A stretch of DNA of 64,000 nucleotides, taken from positions 904,561-968,560 of the forward strand of contig NZ_CP036172.1 in assembly GCF_017357525.1 (NCBI RefSeq). Reading direction: 5' to 3'. The position numbers and the translations under genes are program-made. Shown piece by piece: positions 22,970-26,405 of this stretch; the first letter of the stretch is position 1; each line of letters begins with the position of its first letter. The notes below the pieces were generated by a model, which was given only the letters and a program-made list of their open reading frames with translations, ran no database searches and had not been told where the DNA came from. Origin of the DNA: Methanofollis aquaemaris. Its GTDB lineage: Archaea > Halobacteriota > Methanomicrobia > Methanomicrobiales > Methanofollaceae.

Positions 22970-23110
22970 GCTACCCCCCGGCCCCCCGCGCCAGGATAGG
23001 GGTGGAGACAGCAACACCCTTTTCATGTTCATCGATTTTATCTTCACGCCCCAATCGCCAGCCCGGGGGTCCGGGGGCAGAGCCCCCGGCGCGAACATGT
23101 GGGAAGGCAA
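22970..23110. repeat. GC-rich hairpin repeats (two copies)
   Basis: Two copies occur. The first is a partial one at about 22970-23010 (CCCCCCGGCCCCCC and AGGATAGGGG). The second is a full one at 23045-23110, with the arm 'ccccaatcgccagcccg', a GGGGGCAGAGCCCCC core and the closing 'gcgcgaacatgtgggaaggc'. It is nearly identical to the copies at 15, 568 and 61485. Confidence 0.6.
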
Positions 23111-23594: not shown

Positions 23595-23605
23595 CCTATA
23601 TATGG
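23595..23605 (+). promoter_or_regulatory. TATA box of DUF2193 operon
   Basis: CCTATATATGG is a strong TATA-like element at the end of an 80-bp AT-rich tract. With a start site about 25 nt downstream, the transcript would carry a leader of roughly 265 nt before the DUF2193 ATG. Confidence 0.55.
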
Positions 23606-23629
23606 AGCAATGACGTATTCTCGGATCAG

Positions 23630-23896
23630 AGGGAGGTGACAGTAGCCTGACAAACACGCGTCCGGGAAGAGTTCACCACCGGCCTGATCCCTGCACGGGC
23701 AGCAGGCAGGCCAGACAGGGATGTCCGGTCATCTGAGACAGACCATTATAGTTCAACATTCTTCTTTCATCCGCCCACCGGACCGGAGACCGTCTTTCAA
23801 GACCGGGATCTATCCAGAACCTGAGTGCATCTGTACAAAGTCCGCTCGAAAGAGCGGAAGCTCGAACGATGAATACTGAACCTGGAGGAGAATCGT
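23630..23896 (+). promoter_or_regulatory. Long structured 5' leader of DUF2193 operon
   Basis: The interval between the TATA box and the ATG at 23897 is free of genes and rich in hairpins. GGCCTG (23681-23686) pairs with CAGGCC (23707-23712) around an inner CTGC-acgg-GCAG hairpin. A perfect TCCGCTC-GAAA-GAGCGGA hairpin with a GNRA tetraloop lies at 23841-23858. CTGGAGGAGAATC then supplies a strong ribosome-binding site. Most genes nearby have leaders under 50 nt, so a leader this long suggests cis-regulation. I could not match it to a known riboswitch. Confidence 0.5.
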
Positions 23897-25396
23897 ATGA
23901 ACGCGATATATACCAAAATGGTAGACGAAGCCATGGCGGCCCAGCGTGCCGACGTGGCGACGATCAAAGAGAAGCGGGGGACGAAGTACACCGTCTCTGA
24001 CGGGAAGGCGTACCTCGATGCCGTCACGCAGATGCGGGTCGGCGAGGGGCAGAGCAAGGAGGTGATCGACCTCCACGTAGAGTCGGTGAAGACTCATTAC
24101 AAACACCTCTCCACCCTCACCGATTATGTCAGGCCTGAGGACGACCCCTTCGTCGAGCACTACCAGACGCCGCCGGTGCTTGAGATCCTCTGCGAGGAAG
24201 ACCCGGCCTTCAAGAAGAGCATGGAGGTCTTCATCGAGGGGATCGGAAAAGCCGAAGCCCTTATAGGGCGCGAGTCGGCCCGCCGGTACGCCGGGTTCTA
24301 CGGCCCGACCTGTGTCGTGGACTTCGCCCTCATCCCTGGAAGCACCTCGAACGTCGTCAACCAGATCCTCAGGACCGTCGATATCCCTACACCGCACAAA
24401 CAGGCGATCCTCGCGGCAAAGTCCTGGGGGATGAACACCAGTTACGGCGTCGGCGAGGTCTTCGCCCAGGCGGTTGAGGCCGGCGACACGCTGGCCGACG
24501 CTACCCGGAAAGAGATCGAGCAGCTCCAGGCAATCTACGACCACCCGGTCGAGGCGCAGGTCGATTTGATGGAACGGGCCGGGATGAACTCCTTCGACCC
24601 GAAGAAGTACATGGAGGGGTACAAACAGGACATCAAACCCTTCGTGAAGGCCGCGATCGACGCCGGCGTCCACTACGGCAACATCGCCACCGTGCCGGCC
24701 TACTGTGTCGGCGACATCTCCCACCACATCGCCCAGTCCACCTACAACATGTGCAAGGACGACGTGATCATGGGGGTGATCGAGGCGGTGACCGAGGTGA
24801 TGGAGCAGAGCCTGCGGGCCTCGCTCGACAAAGTCAGGAGCGAGTATCAGATCCTCTCCCTTGCCACCGGCTCATCGGCGGCGGCGACCGAGTACATCCT
24901 CGAACTCGACGGCTTCAACGCCCCCACCGTCGTCGACCTCCTCACCAAACGCTTCCACAACTATGTCCAGCTCTACCCCACCCGCGGGGCGGCAGCGGAG
25001 TTGCACAACTGCGACTTCATGGACATGATCTGGCGGGGCTGGCGGCTCCTGGATTCGGCCAGGCGCAAACGCAACGGCGCCGGCGACGACCTCGTCCCGC
25101 TCGTCGCGGGGTACCCGGTCGACCTCTCGCCCATCCACGAGAATGAAGTGCTGATGAACCCGCAGCGCTACGCCTACCCGGCCTCGGCGATCACGGTGCG
25201 CTTCTCGGCCCTGATGCGCCTTGCCGACTACCCCTGCCTGTTGACCAGCGAACCGGTGACCGCGACGATGATGACCAATGTCATCGCCCTCCACCCCGAG
25301 CAGATCGCCGCCCCGGTGCGGGCCTGCAAAGACTGCGCTTCGGCCTCGATGGTCGACTTCAGGCACGAGTACTGCCAGTGGAGAGAGGCGGTCTGA
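23897..25396 (+). CDS. DUF2193-family protein, conserved in methanogens
   Basis: This large soluble protein of 499 residues matches in length and text the DUF2193 family, which as far as I know is restricted to methanogenic archaea and has no assigned function. It is rich in phrases that look catalytic: RYAGFYGPTCVVDFALIPGSTSNVVNQIL (split about 131-160), GVHYGNIATVPAYCVGDI, HHIAQSTYNMCKDD, AELHNCDFMDMIWRGW, and a C-terminal CKDC...DFRHEYCQW. Cys and His residues clustered in these blocks suggest metal or cofactor binding. I first considered MtaB, but its motifs and start are absent. It begins an operon with DUF2180 and AqpM. The family call is from memory. Confidence 0.7.
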   Translation: MNAIYTKMVDEAMAAQRADVATIKEKRGTKYTVSDGKAYLDAVTQMRVGEGQSKEVIDLHVESVKTHYKHLSTLTDYVRPEDDPFVEHYQTPPVLEILCEEDPAFKKSMEVFIEGIGKAEALIGRESARRYAGFYGPTCVVDFALIPGSTSNVVNQILRTVDIPTPHKQAILAAKSWGMNTSYGVGEVFAQAVEAGDTLADATRKEIEQLQAIYDHPVEAQVDLMERAGMNSFDPKKYMEGYKQDIKPFVKAAIDAGVHYGNIATVPAYCVGDISHHIAQSTYNMCKDDVIMGVIEAVTEVMEQSLRASLDKVRSEYQILSLATGSSAAATEYILELDGFNAPTVVDLLTKRFHNYVQLYPTRGAAAELHNCDFMDMIWRGWRLLDSARRKRNGAGDDLVPLVAGYPVDLSPIHENEVLMNPQRYAYPASAITVRFSALMRLADYPCLLTSEPVTATMMTNVIALHPEQIAAPVRACKDCASASMVDFRHEYCQWREAV

Positions 25397-25423
25397 ACCG
25401 ACCCCGCGCTCAGGTGAGGCATC

Positions 25424-25630
25424 ATGAAGTGCTATGTCTGCGCCCAGGAGGGCAAGGAGACCGAGGCCGCAGGGATCTGCATCGTCTGCGGGATGGGCCT
25501 CTGCACCAGGCACATGGTGCGGGAGGACGTCGACCTCTGGGAGGGGGGCTACCCCTTCCCTGCACAGAAACTCGAGAAGAAACTCCCCAGGATCCTCTGT
25601 CCTGAGTGTGCGGTGGCGTTGAAGGAGTGA
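25424..25630 (+). CDS. DUF2180-family small zinc-binding protein
   Basis: The 68-residue protein has Cys pairs MKCYVC (3,6) and CIVC (19,22), then LCTRH (27-31) and a C-terminal LCPEC, forming a two-site treble-clef or B-box-like zinc fold. It matches the archaeal DUF2180 family of unknown function. ATG 25424 follows AGGTGAGG. It stands 27 nt after the DUF2193 stop and 6 nt before the aquaporin start, so the three genes are very likely one transcript. Confidence 0.72.
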   Translation: MKCYVCAQEGKETEAAGICIVCGMGLCTRHMVREDVDLWEGGYPFPAQKLEKKLPRILCPECAVALKE

Positions 25631-25636
25631 CGACCT

Positions 25637-26380
25637 ATGGTATCACTCATAAAACGGAGCGTCGCCGAACTGGTCGGGACCTTCATCCTGGTATTCTTCG
25701 GCGCCGGAGCGGCGGCGGTCACCCTGATGATCGCCCACGGGGCAGCGGCGCCGAACGAGTTCAACGTCGGGATCGGCGCCCTCGGCGGCCTGGCCGACTG
25801 GCTTGCCATCGGTCTGGCCTTCGGGATCGCCATCGCGGCGGCGATCTACGCCTTCGGCCGGGTCTCGGGGGCGCATATCAACCCGGCTGTAACCGTCGCC
25901 CTCTGGGCCATCGGGAAGTTCCCGGCAAGAGACAGTGTCGCCTATATCGTCGCCCAGCTCGTCGGCGCCGCCCTCGCCAGTCTGGCCTTCTTCGCCTGCG
26001 CCGGTATGGACGCCGTGTCCATCGGCGGACTCGGTGCCACGACACCCTTCCCTGGCATCTCAATGGGGCAGGCGGTCCTGGTCGAGGCGATCGGCACCTT
26101 CCTTTTGATGCTTGCCATCATGGGGGTGGCCGTGGACAAAAAGGCCCCGGTGGGATTTGCCGGCCTGGTCATCGGGCTGACCGTCGCCGGGATCATCACG
26201 ACGACCGGGAACATCGCCGGCGCGTCGCTCAACCCGGCCCGTACCTTCGGGCCGTTCCTCGGCGACTGGCTCATCGGCGGCACCAACCTCTGGGGTTTCT
26301 TCCCCATCTACATCATCGGACCCGTCATCGGGGCGGTCGTCGCGGCGTTCCTATACCAGTGGATCGCCGCCGAGGACTGA
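25637..26380 (+). CDS. aqpM: Aquaporin / glycerol facilitator (MIP family, AqpM-like)
   Basis: The 247-residue channel has six membrane helices and both half-helix NPA motifs: HINPAVTVALW (about 76-86) and SLNPARTFGP (about 199-208). Length and sequence (ELVGTFILVFFGAGAAAV at the start) match AqpM of Methanothermobacter, which conducts water and, more slowly, glycerol. Archaeal AqpM has also been proposed to pass small gases or H2S-like solutes. Its place behind DUF2193 and DUF2180 is unusual and may point to a neutral substrate or product of that enzyme; this is inference. Confidence 0.9.
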   Translation: MVSLIKRSVAELVGTFILVFFGAGAAAVTLMIAHGAAAPNEFNVGIGALGGLADWLAIGLAFGIAIAAAIYAFGRVSGAHINPAVTVALWAIGKFPARDSVAYIVAQLVGAALASLAFFACAGMDAVSIGGLGATTPFPGISMGQAVLVEAIGTFLLMLAIMGVAVDKKAPVGFAGLVIGLTVAGIITTTGNIAGASLNPARTFGPFLGDWLIGGTNLWGFFPIYIIGPVIGAVVAAFLYQWIAAED

Positions 26381-26386
26381 ACCCCT

Positions 26387-26395
26387 CTTTTTTTC
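26387..26395. terminator. T tract after aqpM
   Basis: CTCTTTTTTTCC follows the aqpM stop by 7 nt and would terminate the DUF2193-DUF2180-aqpM transcript. Confidence 0.55.
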
Positions 26396-26405
26396 CGCCC
26401 GCCCT

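Follow-up and report, generated by a model that had tools for sequence, protein, structure and literature searches.

The genes for a DUF2193 protein, a small DUF2180 protein and an AqpM-type aquaporin (MIP) form one operon in Methanofollis aquaemaris. Across genomes, the arrangement of DUF2193 with the channel is far beyond chance, and functional coupling between these two is well supported. That DUF2193 is nearly always found beside a channel suggests joint work on a small uncharged molecule, and it seems, with a probability that we put at roughly 35%, that the operon is one unit in which a DUF2193 metalloenzyme of methanopterin (H4MPT)-linked one-carbon (C1) metabolism would be combined with a channel of its own that passes a small neutral solute. 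The operon and its boundaries were located as follows in the window (i.e. the whole analysed stretch of 64,000 nucleotides, positions 904,561 to 968,560 of contig NZ_CP036172.1):

23596..23605, forward strand: TATA-like element CTATATATGG, a putative promoter (archaeal consensus only)
23630..23713, forward strand: conserved 5' leader element of 84 nt, possibly a structured RNA (covariance model R1)
23897..25396, forward strand: DUF2193 protein of the main type, 499 aa (PF09959, 897 bits)
25325..25375, forward strand: codons of the C-terminal metal-type motif C477-x2-C480-x9-H490-x2-C493, a putative metal site by conservation
25424..25630, forward strand: DUF2180 protein, 68 aa, a putative two-zinc protein (PF09947, 127 bits)
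25637..26380, forward strand: AqpM-type aquaporin (MIP), 247 aa (TIGR00861, 191 bits), nearest to solved AqpM
26387..26396, forward strand: T tract 3' of the channel gene, a likely terminator (from the sequence)

The three open reading frames are separated by 27 nt (DUF2193 to DUF2180) and 6 nt (DUF2180 to MIP), which, together with the Pfam matches, confirms the operon described in the first-pass annotation; the promoter that it placed in front and the T tract behind were likewise recovered as candidate signals, starting at 23596 and 26387. Its label of "methanogen-only" was wrong, because Archaeoglobaceae also have the module (the trio is present in the Archaeoglobus/Archaeoglobaceae loci L020, L053 and L060). 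The DUF2193 gene is the only copy in the genome. A ferritin gene is located upstream of the operon within the window, as is a REP-like palindrome (GGTCCGGGGGCAGAGCCCCCGG, window 23068-23089) with ~125 near-copies genome-wide at two mismatches or fewer (69 forward, 56 reverse), compared to none for the reversed control.

The TATA-like box is followed by a leader of ~290 nt up to the start codon of DUF2193. The 84-nt leader element occurs in 6 of the 11 genomes of the genus, as a single copy that is always directly 5' of DUF2193, and was not found by covariance model R1 in the other sampled genomes of the order. Compensatory change is seen in only 4 of its 27 pairs and the fold of the window copy has a z-score of -1.24; it is possibly a structured RNA, with weak support for the fold. 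A known riboswitch was considered and rejected for want of an Rfam match; the element that is left is limited to the genus and thinly supported by covariation.

The recurrence of the linkage was scored in 295 genomes sampled evenly from the window's phylum, 86 of which have a DUF2193 match. Matches of >800 bits constitute the main type and those of 575-686 bits the divergent type. A co-oriented MIP gene stands 3' of the main-type gene in 79 out of 81 cases (one of the two exceptions being near a contig end), while in a second phylum group, entered via a Methanobrevibacter locus, the pair is present in 69 of the 70 loci examined (in the remaining one, the sequence breaks off 3 nt downstream). 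Recurrent linkage across archaea, which the first-pass annotation had proposed as a check on its trio, was thus borne out very strongly in these two groups for DUF2193 and the channel. DUF2180 is often absent.

Truly solo main-type genes do exist (L030, L042, L045, L052, L055 and L095), with neighbours that show no common theme, and some AqpM genes occur without DUF2193. No DUF2193 gene was found on plasmids. Extra partner genes across the DUF2193 loci are lineage-limited only; for instance, 19 second-group loci have a PF04018 gene 3' of the channel. Many Archaeoglobaceae have an HTH_10-family regulator next to the main-type operon, mostly in divergent orientation, and a homologue lies 1.5 kb from one divergent-type paralog. 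Our literature search, confined to sources outside subscription, returned one paper naming DUF2193, none naming DUF2180 and none on the operon. In one family (f10), AqpM-type channels without DUF2193 are present at four loci (L137, L138, L140 and L141), in the last three of which an HbpS-like (haem-degrading family) gene is directly upstream of the channel. Decayed DUF2193 genes were seen at three loci of the second phylum group (L151, L152 and L153), the first two of which have a 3' channel gene that likewise appears shortened or broken.

The window channel matches PF00230 (MIP) with 162 bits (cut-off 25) and exceeds the cut-off of 171 bits of the NCBIfam model TIGR00861. It falls in the AqpM group of the tree, and its nearest solved structures are AqpM of A. 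fulgidus (3ne2, 3e-109) and of M. marburgensis (2evu, 3e-106). As a member of this group (2evu/2f2b, 3ne2) it has the same NPA motifs (at residues 82 and 199) and the same Phe/Ile/small/Arg pore filter (F62/I187/A196/R202), differing in having Ala at LE1, where AqpM has Ser. All 151 DUF2193-linked MIPs have Phe at H2, Ile at H5 (Val in one), a small residue at LE1 and Arg at LE2, and unlinked AqpM genes carry this filter too, compared to FHTR in an E. coli plasmid AqpZ and WGFR in a GlpF-like protein. Two Methanosarcinaceae loci (L168 and L170) pair DUF2193 with a channel from a different MIP clade: the PDB structure nearest to the L168 channel is AQP4, and placing both with AqpM was rejected in a tree with bacterial outgroups (p-AU 0.002). 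An unlinked relative of these swapped channels has the filter TIAR. A second candidate swap, in Archaeoglobaceae (L074/L077), was not accepted, since a diverged AqpM is possible there (p-AU 0.26). A MIP on a cyanobacterial plasmid (L220, 198-1072; filter HIAR) directly adjoins a manganese catalase gene.

That the channel was swapped and the filter remained unchanged supports one shared kind of small neutral solute, and the DUF2193-MIP pair looks selected, not only inherited. It could be argued that the two have no functional link and that an old operon arrangement simply persists by descent, given that most pairs could stem from one ancestral pair and that a few solo copies exist. However, the pair has been retained in both phylum groups, even where the channel comes from a different clade, and in a genome where DUF2193 was not found (G107), no more is left than a fragment of the channel and a weak DUF2180 match, all of which makes mere persistence very improbable.

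The DUF2193 protein itself matches PF09959 over its full length (positions 2-498 of 498, cut-off 25), with no convincing match to a second Pfam family in any member; a weak match to nitronate monooxygenase (E 0.08) was dismissed as chance. The AlphaFold2 model of the window protein is all-helical and of high confidence (pLDDT 93, pTM 0.92), with a closely similar helix series in that of the divergent type (pLDDT 89.4, pTM 0.89). A comparison with known folds, as the first-pass annotation had suggested, yielded no match naming a known enzyme: by Foldseek, neither type has a PDB counterpart (best E 0.07 and 0.22, TM <0.2), nor has the main type one in a viral library, and a profile search of PDB sequences gave chance matches only. 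A TIM barrel like that of MtaB/MttB, prompted by the MtrH neighbour of the divergent type (see below), was rejected because of the all-helical models and the lack of such a Pfam or NCBIfam match; a corrinoid protein because the DxHxxG cobalamin-binding motif is present in none of 66 sequences; and a carbonic anhydrase because none of these 66 members has such a Pfam match. As far as tested, DUF2193 thus lies outside the known methyltransferase, corrinoid-protein and carbonic anhydrase families.

Across both types (66 sequences), some 45 polar residues are conserved, including H67, E87, E126, R129, D142, E206, H276, H277, D288, R363, H370, D373, D376, D444, C447 and E452. C447, C477, C480 and C493 are invariant in these sequences and C286 is nearly so. 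Of the Cys/His blocks highlighted by the first-pass annotation, the Cys of GPTC and AYCVGD is conserved in the main type alone, and in HNCDFMD the Cys is not conserved, in contrast to H370, D373 and D376; the conserved set as a whole is nevertheless compatible with the metal site that it proposed. Judged by conservation, DUF2193 is likely to be a metalloenzyme. The main type has His at position 490, where most divergent-type sequences have Cys, an exchange that suggests zinc. A different metal is implied by a Methanococcus voltae study, in which the DUF2193 protein Mvol_0354 was more abundant on FeS2 and the C-terminal motif was proposed as an iron-sulfur ligand (PMC9431491). Mvol_0354 belongs to the same Pfam family and has the same C-terminal Cys motif as the window protein, and is known by abundance data only. 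On that basis DUF2193 would carry a labile iron-sulfur cluster or metal, with the channel being secondary; this is very unlikely, as the exchange at 490 is more usual for zinc, and the pairing with the channel, as well as that with MtrH, would be left unexplained.

DUF2193 could also be no enzyme at all, but a protein that binds, gates or assembles AqpM, for channel regulation or as part of an osmotic or pressure response. A near-obligate pairing that is kept with a channel of another clade would fit such a role, as would the response of AqpM to pressure (PMC12727201). Yet conserved polar residues in such numbers would rather be expected of an active site, no channel accompanies the divergent type, and the main type also occurs in solo copies, so that a regulatory role is decidedly unlikely.

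The divergent type, found mainly in Archaeoglobaceae, has a different partner. Its genes of the Archaeoglobaceae kind lie directly 3' of an MtrH-family gene in all 10 loci (gap -14 to +12 nt), and in five of these genomes (G034, G043, G087, G132 and G155) a single MtrH match was found genome-wide. The clusters at L092 and L093 comprise MtrH, Mer and aldehyde ferredoxin oxidoreductase genes with DUF2193, to which L093 adds an MtaA-family gene. The intermediate DUF2193 gene at L091 is without MtrH context and stands alone, and no main-type gene, including that of the window, has an MtrH neighbour. For MtrH relatives that stand alone, a role as methylcorrinoid:H4MPT methyltransferases has been proposed (PMC8630106). 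Because of this paralog context, we infer that the chemistry of DUF2193 is H4MPT-linked C1 chemistry. The divergent pairs resemble MtoABC and MtgABC, whose substrate methyltransferases likewise pair with an MtrH-family gene, but differ from them in that DUF2193 is all-helical and without a corrinoid motif, that MtrH is missing beside the main type, and that no gene for a corrinoid protein could be identified next to the divergent DUF2193-MtrH pair.

For hosts that are archaea of CO2 and C1 metabolism, CO2 itself is a candidate solute, and it has in fact been proposed as that of AqpM (PMC3287591); the studies consulted treated AqpM alone, apart from its gene neighbours. At 25 MPa, Methanocalculus had about four times as much AqpM transcript, under conditions for which the authors calculated that CO2 declines, with no change in the annotated carbonic anhydrase (PMC12727201). 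DUF2193 could then be a new zinc carbonic anhydrase or another CO2-handling protein. High pressure alters many things besides CO2, however, and since DUF2193 matches no carbonic anhydrase family and it would go unexplained why the divergent type is paired with MtrH, a role in CO2 supply is quite unlikely.

DUF2180, the third member of the operon, matches PF09947 over its full length (1-68 of 68, cut-off 22.2) and has eight conserved ligand-type residues (C3, C6, C19, C22, C27, H30, C59 and C62; 98 sequences), by which it is a putative binder of two zinc ions. It is present in most loci of the first group and in 12 of the 70 loci of the second, and since it is often missing, it is an optional, dispensable member. 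In a Methanosarcina-like genome, tandem DUF2180 genes lie far from any DUF2193 (L099, 5207-10607), with neighbours encoding an AhpD-like protein, desulfoferrodoxin, a multihaem cytochrome, an FMN-reductase-type flavoprotein and rubrerythrin.

The location of this DUF2180 pair within an oxygen-defence cluster is one of several hints at protection against peroxide or oxygen, in which the channel would pass H2O2 and DUF2193, with DUF2180, would remove it or repair the damage. An FMN-reductase-type flavoprotein is encoded 3' of the channel in Methanocalculus-type loci (L004, L016 and L162), the ferritin gene of the window lies upstream, the plasmid relative of the swapped channel adjoins a manganese catalase gene, and Ile at H5 also occurs in channels of plants and animals that conduct H2O2 or NH3. 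Stress genes are, however, no general feature of DUF2193 loci, many operons are without DUF2180, and the divergent type is grouped with methyl-H4MPT genes, which makes peroxide protection unlikely.

The C1 reading can draw on the recurrent linkage, the filter kept after the channel swap, the conserved polar residues and the MtrH pairing of the paralog. DUF2193 would be a soluble metalloenzyme of H4MPT-linked C1 metabolism, whose small uncharged substrate or product would pass the membrane through the AqpM-type channel, with DUF2180 as a small optional zinc protein assisting it; the divergent paralog would partner an MtrH-type methyl-H4MPT methyltransferase in place of a channel. The leading guess for the solute is methanol, followed by other C1 compounds. 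A known precedent is the glpF-glpK operon, in which the glycerol facilitator (a MIP) is co-transcribed with a soluble kinase. By analogy, the DUF2193-MIP pair may work like such an enzyme-plus-facilitator operon, a MIP channel with a soluble protein that possibly acts on its solute, except that the fold of DUF2193 is neither that of a kinase nor any other known one and that the filter of the linked channels is not of the GlpF kind (WGFR in a GlpF-like protein). The suggestion of the first-pass annotation, that the channel points to an enzyme using or making a neutral molecule, is partly supported, by the linkage and the retained filter. Against the C1 reading count the lack of an adjacent C1 gene in the main type, a fold unlike that of any known methyltransferase, the absence of DxHxxG in the 66 sequences, and the existence of solo main-type genes, of the solo L091 gene and of AqpM without DUF2193; moreover, the paralog need not share the chemistry of the main type.

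A bolder form of the proposal, which is doubtful, is that DUF2193 defines a new class of all-helical, metal-dependent enzymes transferring C1 (methyl) units to or from H4MPT, and that AqpM serves it as a dedicated channel, for methanol or a C1 compound of that kind. If true, there would be an unrecognised entry or exit for C1 compounds in supposedly CO2-only methanogens and in Archaeoglobus. AqpM is among the few archaeal aquaporins with solved structures, and its physiological solute has been unsettled since its first characterisation in 2003. With a near-obligate partner that has no fold counterpart in the PDB and a paralog tied to methyl-H4MPT, the question of the AqpM solute becomes directly testable: once the role of DUF2193 is found, the solute should follow, which would also aid the assignment of a function to a family that is spread over many methanogens and Archaeoglobaceae.
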